In this document: one piece after another, positions 4,117 to 11,762 of the stretch
Numbering within the stretch: position 1 is the first letter of the stretch
Layout: each line of letters opens with the position of its first letter
Assembly (NCBI RefSeq): GCF_031157355.1
Contig: NZ_JAVIFT010000007.1
Coordinates: 124,001 to 188,000 of the forward strand
DNA from: Hyphomicrobium sp. LHD-15
GTDB taxonomy: Bacteria > Pseudomonadota > Alphaproteobacteria > Rhizobiales > Hyphomicrobiaceae
Reading direction: 5' to 3'
Length of the DNA: 64,000 nt
Program-made: the position numbers and the translations under genes
Notes under the pieces: generated by a model
The model's database searches: none
Seen by the model: the letters and a program-made list of their open reading frames with translations, nothing else
Told to the model about the DNA's origin: nothing

Positions 4117-4572
4117 ATGCGCAAGAAAAAAAACGATGCCACCCAGATCCAGCCTGAGGCGACCGAACTGCTCAAGCGGGCTCCCAATGAGATTGATGTT
4201 CTTGTGGGGCAACGCGTGCGAGTGCGGCGCATCATGAATGGCCTAAGTCAGCAGGGACTAGCCGAAAAGGTTGGCATCTCCTTCCAGCAGGTCCAGAAGT
4301 ATGAAAATGGCCTCAATCGGATTAGCGCTAGCAAGCTCCATCAGATAGCGGAGGCGTTGAACGCCCCCGTTCATATCTTCTTTCAAACCGAAGACGAGTA
4401 TCGGGTTGTTGAGGAAGAGGGCGTATTAGCCCTTCTTAGGGATCGAGATACCGTTTCAGTGTTGCGTGCGTTTTCTCAGATCAGAGATCGCAACTTGAGA
4501 CGGGCCGTCCGCGACCATATCCGAAATATCGCCGCATGCGGAGAAGAGCTGGACGGTAAAGCGGCCGACTAG
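4117..4572 (+). CDS. PraR-like XRE-family transcriptional regulator
   Basis: A 151-residue DNA-binding protein. Residues about 25-88 form a helix-turn-helix of the XRE/Cro type: GQRVRVRR, then LSQQGLAEKVGISFQQVQKYE, then the segment ending in PVHIFF. The wording QQVQKYENG-NRISASKL is the signature of the alphaproteobacterial PraR/SinR-like group. In Rhizobium leguminosarum PraR represses quorum-sensing regulators and influences biofilm formation (established for that protein). Here the gene converges on the quorum-sensing operon, and its stop overlaps that of the 78-aa gene by 4 bases. A regulatory link is inference. The roughly 60-residue C-terminal extension is helical and charged. Confidence 0.8.
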   Translation: MRKKKNDATQIQPEATELLKRAPNEIDVLVGQRVRVRRIMNGLSQQGLAEKVGISFQQVQKYENGLNRISASKLHQIAEALNAPVHIFFQTEDEYRVVEEEGVLALLRDRDTVSVLRAFSQIRDRNLRRAVRDHIRNIAACGEELDGKAAD

Positions 4573-4805
4573 TTCATGCCGCCTCTGGCGGGCGGAAGAA
4601 TGTCCTTGTCCTCGAGCTTGTATTGCGTTTTTAACGACTCTATGGCGCCCACCAACGTAGCCGCAATATCATCTCCGCCGAGTTCCAGCGCATCGTGTGT
4701 TGCGTAGATCAGCAAGCGAGCGAGTCCTTTTGCGCGAGTTTTGAGTGCGTCCTGGTCGTCGATGTTTAGAATAACAGCGTGCAGCTGCGATTGTTTATGC
4801 TGCAT
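4569..4805 (-). CDS. 78-aa protein, last gene of the luxI operon
   Basis: Unrecognised small acidic, helical protein without signal peptide or membrane segment. Its ATG lies inside the 3' end of the CoA-ligase gene (overlap of 11 bases), which indicates translational coupling and places it third in a luxI - ligase - orf unit. It could be an accessory factor of signal synthesis or simply a passenger. No motif was found. The gene converges with, and overlaps by 4 bases, the PraR-like regulator, so antisense effects at the 3' ends are possible. Confidence 0.6.
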   Translation of the reverse strand: MQHKQSQLHAVILNIDDQDALKTRAKGLARLLIYATHDALELGGDDIAATLVGAIESLKTQYKLEDKDILPPARGGMN

Positions 4806-6423
4806 GTTGCGCCCTAAGTGCGAAACGTTTGAGCTTACCCGTCAATGTCTTGGGTAGACCTTTGACGAACACGACCTCCCGAGGCGCCTTGTAAGGCGCG
4901 ATCACGGTCTTGACGTGATCGATCAGTGTTTCCGAAAGTCTATTAGTTTTCTTCATGCCGGTCCGCAGTATTATATACGCTTTGACGCTATGTCCTCTGT
5001 CCAGGCAGGGAACGCCCACCACCGCGCACTCCGCGACCGCCGGATGCTCGAGCAGCGCACTCTCCACCTCTGGAGCTGCAACTTTGTATCCTGAAGTGAC
5101 GATCAGGTCGTCCATCCGGGACTGAAACCAGAAATAGCCATCGTCATCGCGAGAATAGGCATCGCCGGTGATGTTCCAGCCGTTTTTGACATAAACGTTT
5201 TGTCGGTCATCGCTGAGGTAACGGCACCCGGTGGGACCTTTGACCGCGAGCCACCCTACATCGCCAGACGGGACTTCGTTTCCTTGATCGTCAAGGATTG
5301 TCGCGAGATAGCCCGGAACGACCTTGCCGGTTGAACCAGGTCTGATCGCGTCCCCCGCAGCCGAAATGAAAACATGCAGCATTTCGGTCGAACCAATGCC
5401 ATCAATGAGTTTCAACCCGGTCACTAAGAGAAATTCTTCGAACGTCGCTCGAGGGAGTGCTTCTCCGGCGGAGACGCATTTTCGCAACGATCGGATGTCG
5501 AAGTCGTTGATCGATTTGAGCATTGCCCGATAAGCTGTAGGCGCAGTGAAACATATGCTCGGCCGATAAGTCTCGATGGCCTGTAGGAGAGAGGCAGGAC
5601 GGCCATCTTCGAGTAGGAGACTGCAAGCTCCTGCGCGCAGCGGAAACAGGAGGAGACCGCCAAGCCCATAGGTGAAGGCGAGAGAGGGCGAGCCGCAGAA
5701 TAGATCGTCTGATGTGGGTTGGAGAATGTGTTCTGAGAAGGTGTCGCAGATAGCGAGCAAGTCCCGATGGGTGTGGATCGCCCCCTTGGGTTTGCCGGTG
5801 GTGCCTGACGTAAACGCAATCAGACACGGTGTATCGGAGCGCGAGCGATAGGCATCCGCAAAGCGAGTTTCGGTTGCCGCAAAGGCGTCGATATCTGCCG
5901 ATCCCAGCTCAACCGGTCCAGAATAAACACGATAACTTGTGATCGAGCGAAGCGACCGACACTTGGAGCGACATGTCTCCAGCTCACCAAGGAGGTCGCC
6001 TTCGCAAATTGCGTGCGAAATCTCTGCTTTGTTGATGATCGTCACAAGTTCGTTTTTTCGCAGCAATGGCATCGTCGAGACTACGACGCCTCCAGCTCGA
6101 ATGACTGCAAGGTGCAGGGCCGCTAGCATCGGACTGTTGCGCCCCCGAAGGAGGACGCGATTTCCAGGTATCACCCCAAGTCGATGTCGTAAGACCGCAG
6201 CATACCGGGACACGCGCACGAAAAGCTCGTCGTATGTCCATTTTGTGGATGGACTCATGAGCGCTGGGCGTGCGCCGTAGCCGCGCGCAATCCAATAATC
6301 GAGCAATTCCTCGACGACGTTTAAGCGGGGCGAATACGCGCGTCCCGGAACTTTGAGGAGATCGGGTTGTGAGTGCGCTTCTGGCATACGATCGCGAACA
6401 AAGCTGTCAAACCGTTTTGACAT
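4795..6423 (-). CDS. AMP-forming acyl/aryl-CoA ligase linked to luxI
   Basis: A 542-residue member of the ANL superfamily (adenylate-forming CoA ligases), of the benzoate/2-aminobenzoate/coumarate-CoA ligase type. Visible core motifs are the phosphate loop TSGTTGKPKGA (about residue 205), GIGSTEM (A5), NGWNITGD followed by SRMDDLI (A7/A8 hinge), and the C-terminal catalytic Lys in PKTLTGKLKR. It would activate a carboxylic acid to its CoA thioester in the cytoplasm. It starts a few bases after the luxI stop, with a GGGGTG Shine-Dalgarno before the ATG; a GTG overlapping the luxI stop is an alternative. That places it in one operon with the AHL synthase and suggests it supplies the acyl-CoA substrate. 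Confidence 0.85.
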   Translation of the reverse strand: MSKRFDSFVRDRMPEAHSQPDLLKVPGRAYSPRLNVVEELLDYWIARGYGARPALMSPSTKWTYDELFVRVSRYAAVLRHRLGVIPGNRVLLRGRNSPMLAALHLAVIRAGGVVVSTMPLLRKNELVTIINKAEISHAICEGDLLGELETCRSKCRSLRSITSYRVYSGPVELGSADIDAFAATETRFADAYRSRSDTPCLIAFTSGTTGKPKGAIHTHRDLLAICDTFSEHILQPTSDDLFCGSPSLAFTYGLGGLLLFPLRAGACSLLLEDGRPASLLQAIETYRPSICFTAPTAYRAMLKSINDFDIRSLRKCVSAGEALPRATFEEFLLVTGLKLIDGIGSTEMLHVFISAAGDAIRPGSTGKVVPGYLATILDDQGNEVPSGDVGWLAVKGPTGCRYLSDDRQNVYVKNGWNITGDAYSRDDDGYFWFQSRMDDLIVTSGYKVAAPEVESALLEHPAVAECAVVGVPCLDRGHSVKAYIILRTGMKKTNRLSETLIDHVKTVIAPYKAPREVVFVKGLPKTLTGKLKRFALRAQHAA

Positions 6424-6428
6424 CGCCG

Positions 6429-7061
6429 TCACCCCGCAAGTTTGCGGTTGAAGTTGTGGGATAAGACCGGGGTGCGAATGCCGCGCAGTCGGCGCGTTTC
6501 GCGGAGGGCAAATTCAGAAACATCAACAGTTATCCCGACGACATCCATGCCCTGCCATTGAATGGGAAGTCCAAGCGGGCGCGGTGACCAACCGAGCCGC
6601 AAGAAGCGGGGGATCCAATAGGGCTCGGTTACGATGGAGAATTGCGATAGGTTGTGCTCGAGCCCAAATTCCTGGACACCGCACATGATCGTACAGGCGA
6701 CATCGCTAGTCGCGTGCGGTTCGCGACGCTCTGGTACTACGTAAAATCTTGTCCACTCGTAGATATTGGGCGAACGGGGAACCGGATGTGTGCTCGCCAA
6801 CTGCGGGAACACGTCGGCGAGCAGATGCGGCTTGAGGGAGGGTATAAGACGGGAGCCTCCGATCACACGCCCGTCGGTCTCATCGAGCATCAGAAGGTAG
6901 ATTGCGTCGCTATTGTCGAACTGATCGACTTCTCGGCCGTCTGCGCGAGCGAGATCTTTCCAGCCTCGCTCATGTACGTAGATGCGATGCCGGATGCGAA
7001 AGCTATCGTCGACTTGGCTCTGATAGAGGTGTCGGTTCTCGCCCGTAATGATGTGCAACAT
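6429..7061 (-). CDS. LuxI-family N-acyl-homoserine lactone synthase
   Basis: A 210-residue autoinducer synthase. The conserved set is visible: Arg24 and Trp34 in FRIRHRIYVHERGW, Asp46 and Asp49 in DQFD, Arg71 in GGSRLIP, and the EWTRFYV segment. The usual Phe28 is a Tyr here. The opening MLHIITGENRHLY resembles the BjaI/RpaI subgroup, whose members take acyl-CoA (isovaleryl-, coumaroyl-, cinnamoyl-CoA) rather than acyl-ACP; the subgroup assignment is from memory. I chose the Met with GGAGG seven bases upstream over the Met 13 codons earlier. It is followed directly by a CoA ligase and preceded by its luxR on the same strand. Confidence 0.9.
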   Translation of the reverse strand: MLHIITGENRHLYQSQVDDSFRIRHRIYVHERGWKDLARADGREVDQFDNSDAIYLLMLDETDGRVIGGSRLIPSLKPHLLADVFPQLASTHPVPRSPNIYEWTRFYVVPERREPHATSDVACTIMCGVQEFGLEHNLSQFSIVTEPYWIPRFLRLGWSPRPLGLPIQWQGMDVVGITVDVSEFALRETRRLRGIRTPVLSHNFNRKLAG

Positions 7062-7115
7062 GTCCCTGCCTCCGAAAGGAGTTCGGGGCAAGCACGCCAC
7101 GTAAGGTCGTTCGCG

Positions 7116-7139
7116 GGAATCCTAAGAAATGGGGATTCC
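7116..7139 (-). promoter_or_regulatory. Inverted repeat upstream of luxI, candidate lux box
   Basis: GGAATCC at 7116-7122 and GGATTCC at 7133-7139 are exact reverse complements separated by 10 bases. The pair lies 55-78 bases upstream of the luxI start, in the only intergenic space between luxR and luxI. Position and symmetry suit a LuxR-type operator; the 24-bp span is slightly longer than a classical 20-bp lux box. Confidence 0.45.
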
Positions 7140-7185
7140 TACTACGGCTTGGATTGGCATATGAGGGAGGATAGTTTATTGATTT

Positions 7186-7926
7186 CTAAAGCAATATTTC
7201 TCTGCGGCGAATGCCACTGGCGACAGCCTGGGCGCGCGTCACGGCACGTAGCTTTCGACAGATATTCTGCATATGCGCGGTTGAGGTCGCCGCGGATATT
7301 TTCAGTATTTCACCGATCTCCCAGTCGGTTTTGCCGCGCGAGACCCATTTTAAAACCTCACGCTCCCGTGGCGTAAGGCGGTCGGCATCGTCTTCCGCCG
7401 CTCGGGTCCTCAGCCGCGCCCTGTGGCAGCGCGCGAGATCGTGGGCATAGATCGACATCAGATGCAGCGCTTCTCGCCCACGCGGCGGGATGTCGAGTTG
7501 ACGACCACCCATGGTCACACAAGATTGTTCACCGGCGCTGCCAATCAGCGGAATGCTGAAGCCTTGGTTCAGCCCGCATTCACCCGCCTCGTTCATGACC
7601 TGTCTGGCTTGTGCCGTGAACTTAGTAGCGGCCACCTCACTCCAAAAGAACGGCCTCGTCGTTTCGCGAGTATGTCGTGCCATGGGATCGTGGCGATAGA
7701 AACCTTTCTCGATGTAGCGATCGAACCAGACTTGCGACCACCCATTCAAAATCATGAAATTCTCAAGACCAGAGTTCGGAGGAGGCATCTCAGTGATCAG
7801 GAAATTCGTAAAGCCGAATTTTGAAATTTCCTTTGCCAATAGCGGGTAAACCTCGCTCGCTTTCAAAGTCCCACTAAGCTGATCTATAAAATCAAAGGTT
7901 TCGATTTCGACCCGTGGTGTACGCAT
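7186..7926 (-). CDS. LuxR-family AHL-responsive transcriptional activator
   Basis: A 246-residue cognate receptor for the adjacent synthase. The autoinducer-binding domain keeps the invariant residues Trp67, Tyr71, Asp80, Pro81 and Trp95 with the same spacing as in TraR (W57, Y61, D70, P71, W85). The C-terminal DNA-binding domain (about residue 183 on) reads LTPREREVLKWVSRGKTDWEIGEIL, a GerE-type helix-turn-helix. It lies 124 bases upstream of luxI on the same strand. Which ligand it binds is not readable from sequence. Confidence 0.9.
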   Translation of the reverse strand: MRTPRVEIETFDFIDQLSGTLKASEVYPLLAKEISKFGFTNFLITEMPPPNSGLENFMILNGWSQVWFDRYIEKGFYRHDPMARHTRETTRPFFWSEVAATKFTAQARQVMNEAGECGLNQGFSIPLIGSAGEQSCVTMGGRQLDIPPRGREALHLMSIYAHDLARCHRARLRTRAAEDDADRLTPREREVLKWVSRGKTDWEIGEILKISAATSTAHMQNICRKLRAVTRAQAVASGIRRREILL

Positions 7927-8773: not shown

Positions 8774-9070
8774 TCAGTTCGGTCGCTCGAATTCTGTCTT
8801 CCGTGCGCCATTTAGCTCTTCCGCCGCGATGGCCTTGAGCGTTGCCAAATCCATCTCGACGTTGTCGGACAGTCGCGCAATTTCGGCCGCGACCTTTGCC
8901 CAATGCCAGAAACCGTGGTTGTCACCTCGCGCTCGCGAGCGGGCAACGAGGCGCTGCGCCTCATAGTATGCTGTGCGTTCGTTTGCGCGGAGTAGGATCC
9001 GCGCGTCGGCCTTCCAAAGGGCCCGCAACTGCCGCCGTCGATCCAACCACTGTTGAATGAAGCCAAACAT
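8774..9070 (-). CDS. Small helical hypothetical protein
   Basis: A 98-residue frame starting MFGFIQQWLDRRRQLRALW, almost entirely predicted helix, with an amphipathic N-terminus and Arg/Glu-rich middle (RANERTAYYEAQRLVARSR) followed by NHGFWHWAKVAAEIARLS. It reads like a conserved short hypothetical of alphaproteobacterial islands, but I cannot name a family. The longer frame reaching 9286 is an artefact of a recombinase remnant on the other strand. No strong Shine-Dalgarno is visible. Confidence 0.45.
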   Translation of the reverse strand: MFGFIQQWLDRRRQLRALWKADARILLRANERTAYYEAQRLVARSRARGDNHGFWHWAKVAAEIARLSDNVEMDLATLKAIAAEELNGARKTEFERPN

Positions 9071-9159
9071 CTGAAAACATCCGCGCCCATCGAGAAGATC
9101 CCGTCGTAGTTCTCCGACGAGCCCGCAATATATTTGAAAAGGCTTTGATGGAGGAGAGC

Positions 9160-9273
9160 ATGCCTGCTTCGGCCAGCGAAAAGAAGGCTGCGCAATATGT
9201 GCGCATGTCAACCGACTACCAGCAGTATTCAACCGCCAATCAAAAGGCTGCCATCGCCGGACCTGTTCGGTAG
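9160..9273 (+). pseudogene. N-terminal stub of a serine recombinase
   Basis: A 37-codon frame with a good GAGGAG Shine-Dalgarno. It reads QYVRMSTDYQQYSTANQKAAI in the middle, the start of large serine recombinases with the catalytic Ser in the VRMSTD segment. After IAGPVR a stop follows and the family sequence does not resume in any frame, so only the first few percent of the gene remains. It lies just upstream of a tyrosine integrase and marks a recombination breakpoint. Confidence 0.7.
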
Positions 9274-9540
9274 GTCTGTCCCTCAAGCGGTCATAGCGTG
9301 ACGACGGGACAGCCGTGCCGCTCGCACTTTTGGCAATGTCTGCTCACCATGGGTCTGCGTCATCGGAGGCCAACCGCGGTTCTACAGAAGCAAACATTAG
9401 CCGCCGCATTGATCCGCAACGCTGTACGGACCTTCGACTATGCCCATTTGGGTTTGCATCATGTGGCTATCTCCGCAGCAATCTCGATGCATAATCGAAC
9501 TGCATGCCGAGATATCGGCACATGAGTGAGGAGTGACCCA

Positions 9541-10827
9541 ATGAATAAGCACGACACCATCCTGGGTGATCCCCAGGTTCGCCGATCCATGAGATACCGA
9601 CGTGCCGGATACTACCACTGTTTTGATGTTGGCAAGGCCGTAGGCTACATCCCGAGGCAATCGGGCCCTGGGCGGTGGGTTGCAAGGGTGACCCAACATT
9701 GCAAGCTGTATCGCGAAGAGACATTCGCAATTGCTGACGACTACGACCGATCTAATGGTGCGACGATTCTGACGTTTGCAGAGGCGAAGGCACGCGCTCA
9801 GAACCTTTGTTCGCGACCGCATTTAACCAAGAACTTTTCTGCTCAGGTGTGCTTTGGAAAGGAGCGTGGACTCCGCTTCTGCCCCTTCGGAGACGTTTAC
9901 ACCGTTGGTCACGCACTCGCCGAGTATGTCGAGTGGAAGCGCACCTTTGGGACTGAGAGCTCGTTTCAGACCGCGCTGAGCAACATCAACTACTACATCT
10001 ATCCCGAACTAGGGACGGTTCGAGCAGACGAACTCAACCACATTCACATACGTCGGATGATGGAGCGTATTGAAGCGACGCCATCAAATTCAGCAAAGTC
10101 TGCGACGCGCTTCCTGATCGATCCCAAAACCTTGGACCCAGATGCGCGCCGGAAGCGCCGCGTCTCCGCCAACAATGCCGTCTCCATTCTTCGCGCGGCG
10201 TTGTTGTTGGCGTGGGAAGCCGGCAAAATCTTAGATGATAGAGGGTGGCGACGAACCTTTCGCTTCAAGGACGGTGTCCGCCCCCGTACAGACATTCTGA
10301 CGCGCCAGCAGTTTGAGAGCTTGTTGGCTGTGGCCGATGCAGAAATAAAAACCCTTCTGATCGGGCTCTTTTATACCGGCTGCCGCATTACCGAGCTGCT
10401 CAGCATCCAGGCTGGAGACCTTCTTGCTGATCGGCTAGCCGTCTACATTCGTGCCGTAAAGAAGGTAGAGGCACACTACATCGCGCTTCCGCGCACCGGC
10501 TATGATTACCTTCTTTCACTCGCGACGAAACGTGGCTCAACGGATCTCATCTTTACCCGGGCCGACGGTAGCAGTTGGACGCGCTACGCCATGCAGAGTC
10601 GATTTAGAACAGCTCTGAAAAAAGCAGGTCTGCCGAACCGCTACGTCTTCCATACAATGCGGCACACATACGCGTCGCTGCGGCTTCAGGAAGGCATCTC
10701 ACCCATAGCGGTTGCTCGTCAGCTTGGACATCGGCACGTTCGGACCGTCATGCAGACCTACGCGCATTGCACTGATGACGTGCTCGATCAGGAAATTCGA
10801 GAGAAGTTTATTCCTCCGGTTCTGTAG
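9541..10827 (+). CDS. Tyrosine-type site-specific integrase
   Basis: A 428-residue integrase. The catalytic residues are all visible: Arg in YTGCRITELLS, Lys in RAVKKVEAHY, H-x-x-R in HTMRHTYASL, His in RQLGHRHVRTV, and the Tyr nucleophile in MQTYAH. A core-binding SAM-like domain (about residues 125-200) precedes the catalytic half. The ATG with GAGGAG seven bases upstream was preferred over an in-frame GTG 15 bases earlier. It looks intact. No attachment site or excisionase was recognised beside it; neighbouring sequence is recombination debris, so it probably belongs to an eroded integrative element. Confidence 0.85.
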   Translation: MNKHDTILGDPQVRRSMRYRRAGYYHCFDVGKAVGYIPRQSGPGRWVARVTQHCKLYREETFAIADDYDRSNGATILTFAEAKARAQNLCSRPHLTKNFSAQVCFGKERGLRFCPFGDVYTVGHALAEYVEWKRTFGTESSFQTALSNINYYIYPELGTVRADELNHIHIRRMMERIEATPSNSAKSATRFLIDPKTLDPDARRKRRVSANNAVSILRAALLLAWEAGKILDDRGWRRTFRFKDGVRPRTDILTRQQFESLLAVADAEIKTLLIGLFYTGCRITELLSIQAGDLLADRLAVYIRAVKKVEAHYIALPRTGYDYLLSLATKRGSTDLIFTRADGSSWTRYAMQSRFRTALKKAGLPNRYVFHTMRHTYASLRLQEGISPIAVARQLGHRHVRTVMQTYAHCTDDVLDQEIREKFIPPVL

Positions 10828-11135: not shown

Positions 11136-11762
11136 TCAGATGTCGATCTTCTCGGCGATCTCAATCGCGTCGTCTACCTCTATGCCGGGGTACCTTACGG
11201 TGCTTTCGATCTTCGAATGCCCAAGCAATAGCTGGACAGCCCGAAGGTTTCCGGTTCTCCGGTAGATGAGCACCGCCTTTGTCCGACGCAGCGAGTGTGT
11301 GCCGAACTTCGCCGTGTCGCGACCGATACTGGCGATCCACTCAAGAACGAGACGCGCGTACTGCCGCGTTGTCAGCCCACCTCTGTCGCCACGACCGGCG
11401 AAGAGGAACTGACGCGGCTTGCGTCCAGTCAAGCGCAGATACTCGTCGATGGCCTGGCGTGTCTGATCGGTTAGCTCAAACCGTACCGGCCTGCCGGTCT
11501 TCTTCTGCCGGACGGTTGCGCGGTCCATCGAGTATCCGCTCGGCGCAACGTCATCGACGCGAACGGCAACTACGTCACAGCCTCGAAGCTTGCTGTCGAT
11601 CGCCAGGTTGAAGAGAGCCAGGTCTCTCTTCTTGCCCTCGATTTCGAGCTTGGTCCGGATCGACCAGACGTGGCTCGGGCGCAAGGGCGGCTTCGCGCCT
11701 ACTAGCTTGCCCTTGTTCCAAGGTACTCGGGTCACTGTCTTTGGAGCATGTTCCTGTTCCAT
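11136..11762 (-). CDS. Short tyrosine recombinase/integrase lacking a core-binding domain
   Basis: A 208-residue protein of the short alphaproteobacterial integrase family that consists mainly of the catalytic domain. Catalytic residues are visible: Arg in SKLRGCDVV, Lys in RQKKTGRP, H-x-x-R in THSLRRTK, His in QLLLGHSKI and Tyr in STVRYPGIE. The family usually reads RYLGIEV; Pro replaces Leu next to the Tyr. A second copy, inverted and truncated, sits at 45284-45853, about 90% identical over 155 residues by eye. Many genomes of this order carry several stand-alone copies; the biological role is unknown. Confidence 0.75.
   Translation of the reverse strand: MEQEHAPKTVTRVPWNKGKLVGAKPPLRPSHVWSIRTKLEIEGKKRDLALFNLAIDSKLRGCDVVAVRVDDVAPSGYSMDRATVRQKKTGRPVRFELTDQTRQAIDEYLRLTGRKPRQFLFAGRGDRGGLTTRQYARLVLEWIASIGRDTAKFGTHSLRRTKAVLIYRRTGNLRAVQLLLGHSKIESTVRYPGIEVDDAIEIAEKIDI

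Follow-up and report, generated by a model that had tools for sequence, protein, structure and literature searches.

A stretch of 64,000 nucleotides from Hyphomicrobium sp. LHD-15 (contig NZ_JAVIFT010000007.1; genome of 4.29 Mb in 10 contigs), called the window below, carries a quorum-sensing locus in which a luxR-luxI pair is joined to a gene for a coenzyme A (CoA) ligase. Four genes are encoded on the window's minus strand, in the order luxR, luxI, CoA ligase and a coupled gene for a protein of 78 amino acids. The first (7186..7926) encodes a LuxR-type regulator of 246 amino acids that is predicted to bind acyl-homoserine lactones (PF03472, 107.8 bits; PF00196, 59 bits), and the second (6429..7061) an acyl-homoserine lactone synthase of the BjaI/RpaI group with 210 amino acids (PF00765, 76.1 bits against a cut-off of 24). 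The third (4795..6423) encodes an aryl-CoA ligase of 542 amino acids with PF00501 and PF13193 domains, which belongs to a clade of anthranilate (2-aminobenzoate)-CoA ligases. The fourth (4569..4805) overlaps the 3' end of the ligase gene by 11 nucleotides, and its product has no Pfam or NCBIfam match. On the plus strand, a gene for an XRE regulator of 151 amino acids (4117..4572; PF01381, 49.4 bits), a paralog of PraR, meets the 78-amino-acid gene tail-to-tail and is the fifth conserved gene. The initial annotation had proposed the operon from luxR to the 78-amino-acid gene at this place; its coordinates are confirmed, as are luxR, luxI and the ligase by their Pfam matches. The convergent XRE gene had been overlooked and two starts needed revision. 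The luxI frame as listed begins at GTG 7100, but ATG 7061 is most likely the start, because the ortholog in Hyphomicrobium zavarzinii begins at a matching ATG and because a GGAGG precedes the window's own ATG. The ligase most likely begins at ATG 6423, 5 nucleotides past the luxI stop (a start at GTG 6432 would give 545 amino acids); the corresponding spacing in H. zavarzinii is 6 nucleotides.

In this second species all five genes recur, their order and orientation unchanged, between different flanking genes. A LuxI relative is encoded in 260 of the stretches surveyed, of which the best 80 were kept with flanks of at most 6 kb, less where a contig ends sooner; this survey may lack records of the window's own genome. 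Among the named genomes in these best 80, the closest LuxI is that of H. zavarzinii ATCC 27496. Amino-acid identity between the two species is 73% for LuxI, 65% for the ligase, 59% for LuxR, 45% for the XRE protein (46% in another comparison) and 37% for the 78-amino-acid protein (45% over a shorter stretch). The overlap of 11 nucleotides between the ligase and the small gene is the same in both. Across the five genes, divergence is 0.61-0.67 at the third codon position and 0.14-0.46 at the first and second. The five-gene arrangement is therefore more than chance, since order, strand and coupling persist in a second species while third codon positions have diverged most.

The synthase and the regulator

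The best relatives of LuxI in the Protein Data Bank (PDB) are 6wn0, a 4-coumaroyl-homoserine lactone (HSL) synthase, 6wns and BjaI (5w8c/5w8a), at 160-181 bits, with TofI (67 bits) and LasI (50 bits) trailing. A quick tree of 116 rows pairs the synthases of the window and of H. zavarzinii with a support of 98 in the Shimodaira-Hasegawa-like approximate likelihood ratio test (SH-aLRT), and this pair falls within a part of 105 rows together with BjaI, RpaI and 6wns (SH-aLRT 89, unstarred); TofI is the only reference in this tree that uses acyl carrier protein (ACP) and is also its root. By sequence, LuxI is thus grouped with acyl-CoA users and not with the acyl-ACP user TofI, as the initial annotation had expected in assigning it to the BjaI/RpaI group, and it would presumably use CoA thioesters; the grouping with acyl-ACP users that the annotation had named as refuting did not appear. 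The residues that we take to be catalytic (R24, W34, E44, D46, D49, R71, E102 and R105) are all present. A change of Phe28 to Tyr had been suggested to shape the acyl pocket. Tyr is ordinary at this position, occurring in 76 of the 116 aligned rows, RpaI and 6wns among them, against Phe in 36, and the idea of a specificity change has been dropped. The same genome has a second, marginal PF00765 match (G000:C1:1011152-1011559; 25.8 bits, cut-off 24).

In LuxR, all six residues that presumably correspond to the signal contacts of TraR (W57, Y61, D70, P71, W85 and G113) can be read by eye. A weak lux-box candidate, GGAATCC-10 nucleotides-GGATTCC (7116..7139), is located upstream of luxI. It is one of eight inverted-repeat pairs in the 1.2 kb searched, no such repeat is seen in the H. 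zavarzinii spacer, and it may be a chance occurrence.

Ancestry of the ligase and distribution of the pairing

The motifs of the ANL family are intact in the ligase (FTSGTTGKPKG, STEML, TGD and TGK, with the A10 lysine) when it is aligned with PDB enzymes. The best PDB match is 4wv3, an anthranilate-CoA ligase (278 bits), followed by benzoate ligases including 2v7b (252-270 bits), while PqsA (5oe3) is weaker at 161 bits. Two trees, of 36 and 58 rows, both recover the lux-linked ligases as a pair (support 100/100) that is nested in a clade, again 100/100, of 26 and 52 rows, respectively. This clade includes the plasmid-borne ligase of Arthrobacter Rue61a (48.3% identity to the ligase of the window), and the box-cluster benzoate ligase, 2v7b, AuaEII and others lie outside. 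The nearest homologs found outside Hyphomicrobium have at most 57% identity; in the 58-row tree, seven ligases of the same order are sisters of the lux-linked pair (98/95), and one of these is accompanied by a monooxygenase/reductase cluster. The Rue61a enzyme ARUE_113p00220 is reported to be an anthranilate-CoA ligase on the basis of expression in Escherichia coli, assay and mass spectrometry (PMC3534580). It has been equated here with ARUE_RS22905, judging from its place before the monooxygenase/reductase gene, whose product bears the RefSeq name bifunctional salicylyl-CoA 5-hydroxylase/oxidoreductase. With the NCBIfam model of the benzoate-CoA ligase family, TIGR02262 (curated cut-off 375.25), the window ligase scores 349.7, those of H. 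zavarzinii and Rue61a 334.9 and 338.4, and clade members from Thalassospira and Ruegeria 358.3 and 365.5, all below the cut-off; the box-cluster benzoate ligase scores 731.8.

The surroundings of other clade members were compared for markers of catabolic clusters. The markers considered were the monooxygenase/reductase, kynU, kynA, enoyl-CoA hydratase, acyl-CoA dehydrogenase, SDR and RidA, in stretches of varying length. At least one was found near 20 of 24 other members, with the monooxygenase/reductase near 11, and among 26 further members RidA is nearby in 25. In Thalassospira the ligase is followed by kynU and kynA, in Aminobacter by kynA. The ligase is therefore best described as an aromatic-acid type that appears to descend from anthranilate-type aryl ligases. 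Such a descent agrees with the resemblance to aromatic-acid ligases that had been noticed at the outset, and it leaves without support the branched-acyl system that had been offered as a second possibility; that reading has been dropped, the best PDB matches being an anthranilate and a benzoate enzyme. One divergent clade member, on plasmid AZO_p1 of Azospirillum lipoferum 4B, in which the pocket motif reads FAYGLGG and the STEMLH motif is altered, lacks any nearby marker and is possibly another repurposed ligase.

The Hyphomicrobium genome provides no recognisable partner in anthranilate catabolism for the ligase in the searches made, in which kynA was not among the genes searched. With the Rue61a monooxygenase/reductase as query, the enzyme was not found: there is one good match, confined to residues 388-641 (the reductase part) and in our reading an old yellow enzyme-like protein, besides two matches of 21 bits. 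For kynureninase there is no convincing match either, one protein having 24% identity at an E-value of 1e-5. Membership of the ligase in a local aromatic catabolic pathway is, with kynA left aside, not supported by these results. Other ANL matches in the genome reach at most 39% identity to the ligase, over a partial stretch. TrpE is present (573.6 against a curated cut-off of 517.7), so an endogenous source of anthranilate exists, and this acid should be made by the cell.

The linkage of luxI to a ligase gene is rare in the loci surveyed. The initial annotation had called for a survey of its conservation; the linkage is kept in H. zavarzinii and is absent from the rest of the best 80 of the 260 LuxI loci, although at one of these (L134) a weak ANL match lies some 5 kb from luxI. 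No ligase match was found near luxI in 28 LuxI loci of relatives with flanks of up to 1.5 kb, nor beside luxI in ten loci from a family search, some genes of which are the same as in the other sets. Among eight genomes of the genus, four have a LuxI match and two, LHD-15 and H. zavarzinii, a close one; the same two alone have a ligase match at an E-value of 1e-100 or better. Throughout the order, 111 of 397 genomes have a ligase match at 1e-150 or better, and in none of the 26 loci newly fetched from those 111 does luxI or luxR lie within 1.5 kb of it. So far, the arrangement is known only in Hyphomicrobium.

Other genes follow luxI elsewhere. Crotonase-like (enoyl-CoA hydratase-like) matches of about 29% identity lie downstream on the same strand in two further genomes of the order, at L210 (luxI 1489-2076, match 2294-2851) and L025 (luxI about 2100-1501, match 1182-631), which are possible design relatives of the Mesorhizobium luxI-crotonase circuit described below. 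At L208, an SDR-type match (1249-641, 33%) lies downstream of luxI (2094-1501) on the same strand and is perhaps another luxI-linked gene for CoA tailoring. An annotated LysR-type gene comes directly after luxI in Paracoccus saliphilus (L048) and, by eye, at L070, L075 and L083.

The small protein and the adjoining XRE regulator

A profile built from the two orthologs of the 78-amino-acid protein and run against 8281 open reading frames (ORFs) of LuxI loci retrieved only the H. zavarzinii copy (at two loci) and a weak match at L026 (E-value 0.06), and no plasmid relative was found at an E-value of 0.01. Small ORFs coupled to luxI do occur in other genera. At seven RpaI-group loci of Rhodopseudomonas (L085, L086, L089, L091, L099, L102 and L124), an ORF of 74-86 amino acids overlaps the luxI end by 4 nucleotides, and we know of no description of its function; at L057, L058, L060, L061, L065 and L068, mostly from Bosea, an ORF of 95 amino acids overlaps it by 8 nucleotides. 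Kinship of the 78-amino-acid gene with the Rhodopseudomonas ORFs has been rejected.

The XRE protein has 41% identity to the genome's own PraR-like protein, the gene for which lies elsewhere and precedes metK and trmB (both read by eye), in the gene order that is described for praR (PMC10790750). CinS of Rhizobium and MmaP of Methylobacterium, small proteins that are made together with the synthase, are reported to bind PraR (PMC4149787, PMC10790750). In place and size the 78-amino-acid protein fits such a role, and by analogy it might act on XRE/PraR proteins in the manner of CinS and MmaP, although this is doubtful. That the XRE protein is a benzoyl-CoA sensor of the BzdR/BoxR type is unsupported, as it reaches 42.5 bits with PRK08154, for which the cut-off is 204, and has a length of 151 amino acids only.

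The proposed circuit and its alternatives

In the explanation that fits best, LuxR and its signal would turn on luxI, the ligase and the 78-amino-acid gene as one operon, presumably by autoinduction. The ligase, captured from a lineage of anthranilate degradation, would load an aromatic acid onto CoA, and this acid would most likely be anthranilate from the tryptophan pathway. LuxI would couple the aryl group to S-adenosylmethionine and release an aroyl-HSL, most likely N-anthraniloyl-HSL. The 78-amino-acid protein may titrate the adjacent PraR-like regulator, and the density signal would then also act on a repressor. These parts deserve different degrees of belief. It is probable, as far as the genes can tell, that the ligase supplies some aroyl-CoA to LuxI and that LuxR closes the loop; activation of an acid specifically for signalling, which the initial annotation had put forward, still seems the best reading of a dedicated ligase. 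The five-gene explanation as a whole, with an anthranilate-fed aroyl-HSL, is tentative and falls a little short of an even chance. Anthranilate as the acid and anthraniloyl-HSL as the signal are possible, with somewhat more doubt than confidence. Slightly more tentative again is the full proposal of N-anthraniloyl-HSL for which a captured catabolic ligase draws on the tryptophan pathway of the cell itself, possibly with a dual readout, one by LuxR and the other by a small protein titrating the adjacent PraR-like repressor. Whether the acid is external or endogenous had been left open; anthranilate may now be placed first and benzoate next, an order to which the ancestry of the ligase points, and for the former an endogenous source exists.

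Several observations weigh against this explanation. No kinship was seen between the 78-amino-acid protein and other small ORFs coupled to luxI; for those of Rhodopseudomonas, hhalign gives a probability of 0.8%. The catabolic marker is imperfectly specific, because four of the 24 clade members have none nearby and one of four outgroup ligases (Agrobacterium) also adjoins a monooxygenase match. Anthranilate activity extends beyond the clade, AuaEII (4wv3) being an anthranilate-CoA ligase from outside it. The lux-linked pair stands on a long stem (0.68 in the 58-row tree), and each of its members is altered at 23 of 186 clade-conserved sites, where single members are altered at 0-23; the Rue61a ligase itself departs at 19 of 193 such sites. 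Both lux-linked ligases have the pocket motif FTYGLGG, with Tyr where 47 of the 50 other members have Phe and three have Tyr; the FTF motif of the clade is a measure of our own and not a defining feature in print. Finally, the characterised 2-aminobenzoate ligase of A. evansii also accepts benzoate (PMC8388817 Table 1), and LuxI has, like its H. zavarzinii counterpart, an Arg155 at what would be the ACP-contact position 9 in our inferred numbering.

The pocket residue and the broad specificity of these ligases lead to a serious alternative, rather unlikely as it may be, in which the same circuit yields benzoyl-HSL or a different aroyl-HSL of the benzoate type, such as salicyloyl-HSL, made with an acid from outside or from metabolism. 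Some benzoate ligases are in turn listed as accepting 2-aminobenzoate (PMC8388817 Table 1), and benzoate ligases have Tyr at the pocket site just as the lux-linked pair does. However, this Tyr follows an Ala in benzoate ligases (FAYGLGN) and a Thr in the pair, and the Thr, the ancestry and the band of TIGR02262 scores all fit the anthranilate clade.

Arg155 speaks for a further alternative, in which the ligase does not feed LuxI at all but recycles or removes free acid, and the synthase takes a different acyl-CoA or an acyl-ACP. A parallel could be seen in RpfB, a fatty acyl-CoA ligase beside the synthase of the diffusible signal factor (DSF), which is cited as counteracting the RpfF thioesterase. 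Synthases that use acyl-CoA are described as having no positive residue at ACP-contact position 9 (PMC4234381). Lys or Arg occupies the position matching Arg155 in 26 of the 116 rows. Among them is the LuxI of BTAi1 (L120), with Lys, and this strain is reported to produce p-coumaroyl-HSL when supplied with p-coumarate (PMC4659178), presumably by means of L120. Since LuxI clusters with CoA users in the tree and it is not obvious what an aryl ligase would contribute to a fatty-acyl signal, this explanation is improbable.

The region of the operon was possibly acquired. Its G+C content (4117-7926) is 0.552, compared with 0.612-0.654 for nine loci elsewhere in the genome, and genes for tyrosine recombinases are located nearby at 9526-10827 (plus strand) and 11136-11762 (minus strand). 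A recent assembly of genes with loose functional ties on DNA that was acquired, with the ligase as a relic or passenger, would also suit the finding of the ligase at one of the best 80 of 260 LuxI loci, but it is very improbable given that the tightly coupled order of five genes is kept in a second species over a long divergence and in other surroundings, that the H. zavarzinii unit differs little in G+C (0.586) from its flanks (0.594-0.597) and that the catalytic motifs are intact. Similar small proteins with an HWAKVAAEIAR-like stretch, noted by eye and unscored, occur in the window (8774-9286, minus strand; no Pfam match) and in H. zavarzinii (L045, 9769-10242, plus strand), where they flank the cassette on opposite sides.

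For the proposed circuit of a CoA-type LuxI with its own aryl-CoA ligase, the closest precedent is the three-gene luxR-luxI-crotonase circuit (R1-I1-crotonase) of Mesorhizobium japonicum, in which a crotonase gene 8 bp downstream of luxI is reported to be required for the normal signal level (PMC10470506). Both combine a CoA-type LuxI with a downstream gene on the same strand for an enzyme that acts on acyl-CoA. In Mesorhizobium this is a crotonase-family enzyme and the signal is a dienoyl fatty one, whereas the Hyphomicrobium operon has no crotonase-family gene after luxI and instead an adenosine monophosphate (AMP)-forming aryl-CoA ligase, with an adjoining PraR-like gene. The system also resembles RpaI/RpaR of Rhodopseudomonas palustris, which makes p-coumaroyl-HSL: RpaI uses aryl-CoA, and the closest solved relative of LuxI is 6wn0. 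RpaI is described as needing p-coumarate from outside and a ligase of the cell (PMC10470506), and together with a plant CoA ligase it is reported to yield several aryl-HSLs in E. coli (PMC4659178); unlike in Hyphomicrobium, the flanks of the Rhodopseudomonas loci among the best 80 contain no match to the window ligase. With the ligases of the aerobic 2-aminobenzoyl-CoA pathway, such as that of Rue61a, the lux-linked ligase shares its clade and differs in the linkage to luxI, the lack of a 2-aminobenzoyl-CoA monooxygenase/reductase cluster and the replacement of the pocket Phe by Tyr. PqsA of Pseudomonas aeruginosa is an anthranilate-CoA ligase that serves cell-to-cell signalling, with a quinolone and not an HSL as product. 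As in CinI-CinS/PraR of Rhizobium and MmaI-MmaP/PraR of Methylobacterium, the LuxI operon has a small gene coupled to it, and an XRE regulator of the PraR family is present; here, unlike in those systems, a PraR paralog adjoins the small gene, and the likeness of the small proteins is one of analogy. In the open-licence literature searched, a luxI-ligase operon is nowhere reported, and there is no paper on anthraniloyl-, aminobenzoyl-, benzoyl- or salicyloyl-HSL; as far as titles show, the literature on luxI or homoserine lactones in Hyphomicrobium does not deal with this system.

If the proposal is true, Hyphomicrobium would have a quorum-sensing operon with its own aryl-CoA ligase, which needs neither a borrowed catabolic enzyme nor a plant acid. 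A catabolic ligase of the anthranilate type would have been recruited into HSL signalling, and the autoinducer would unite LuxI's homoserine lactone chemistry with the chemistry of anthraniloyl-CoA that is familiar from quinolone signalling. Such a system could furnish synthetic circuits with a new orthogonal signal. Furthermore, a specific signal is predicted, the acyl group of which would link cell density to the flux through the tryptophan pathway.

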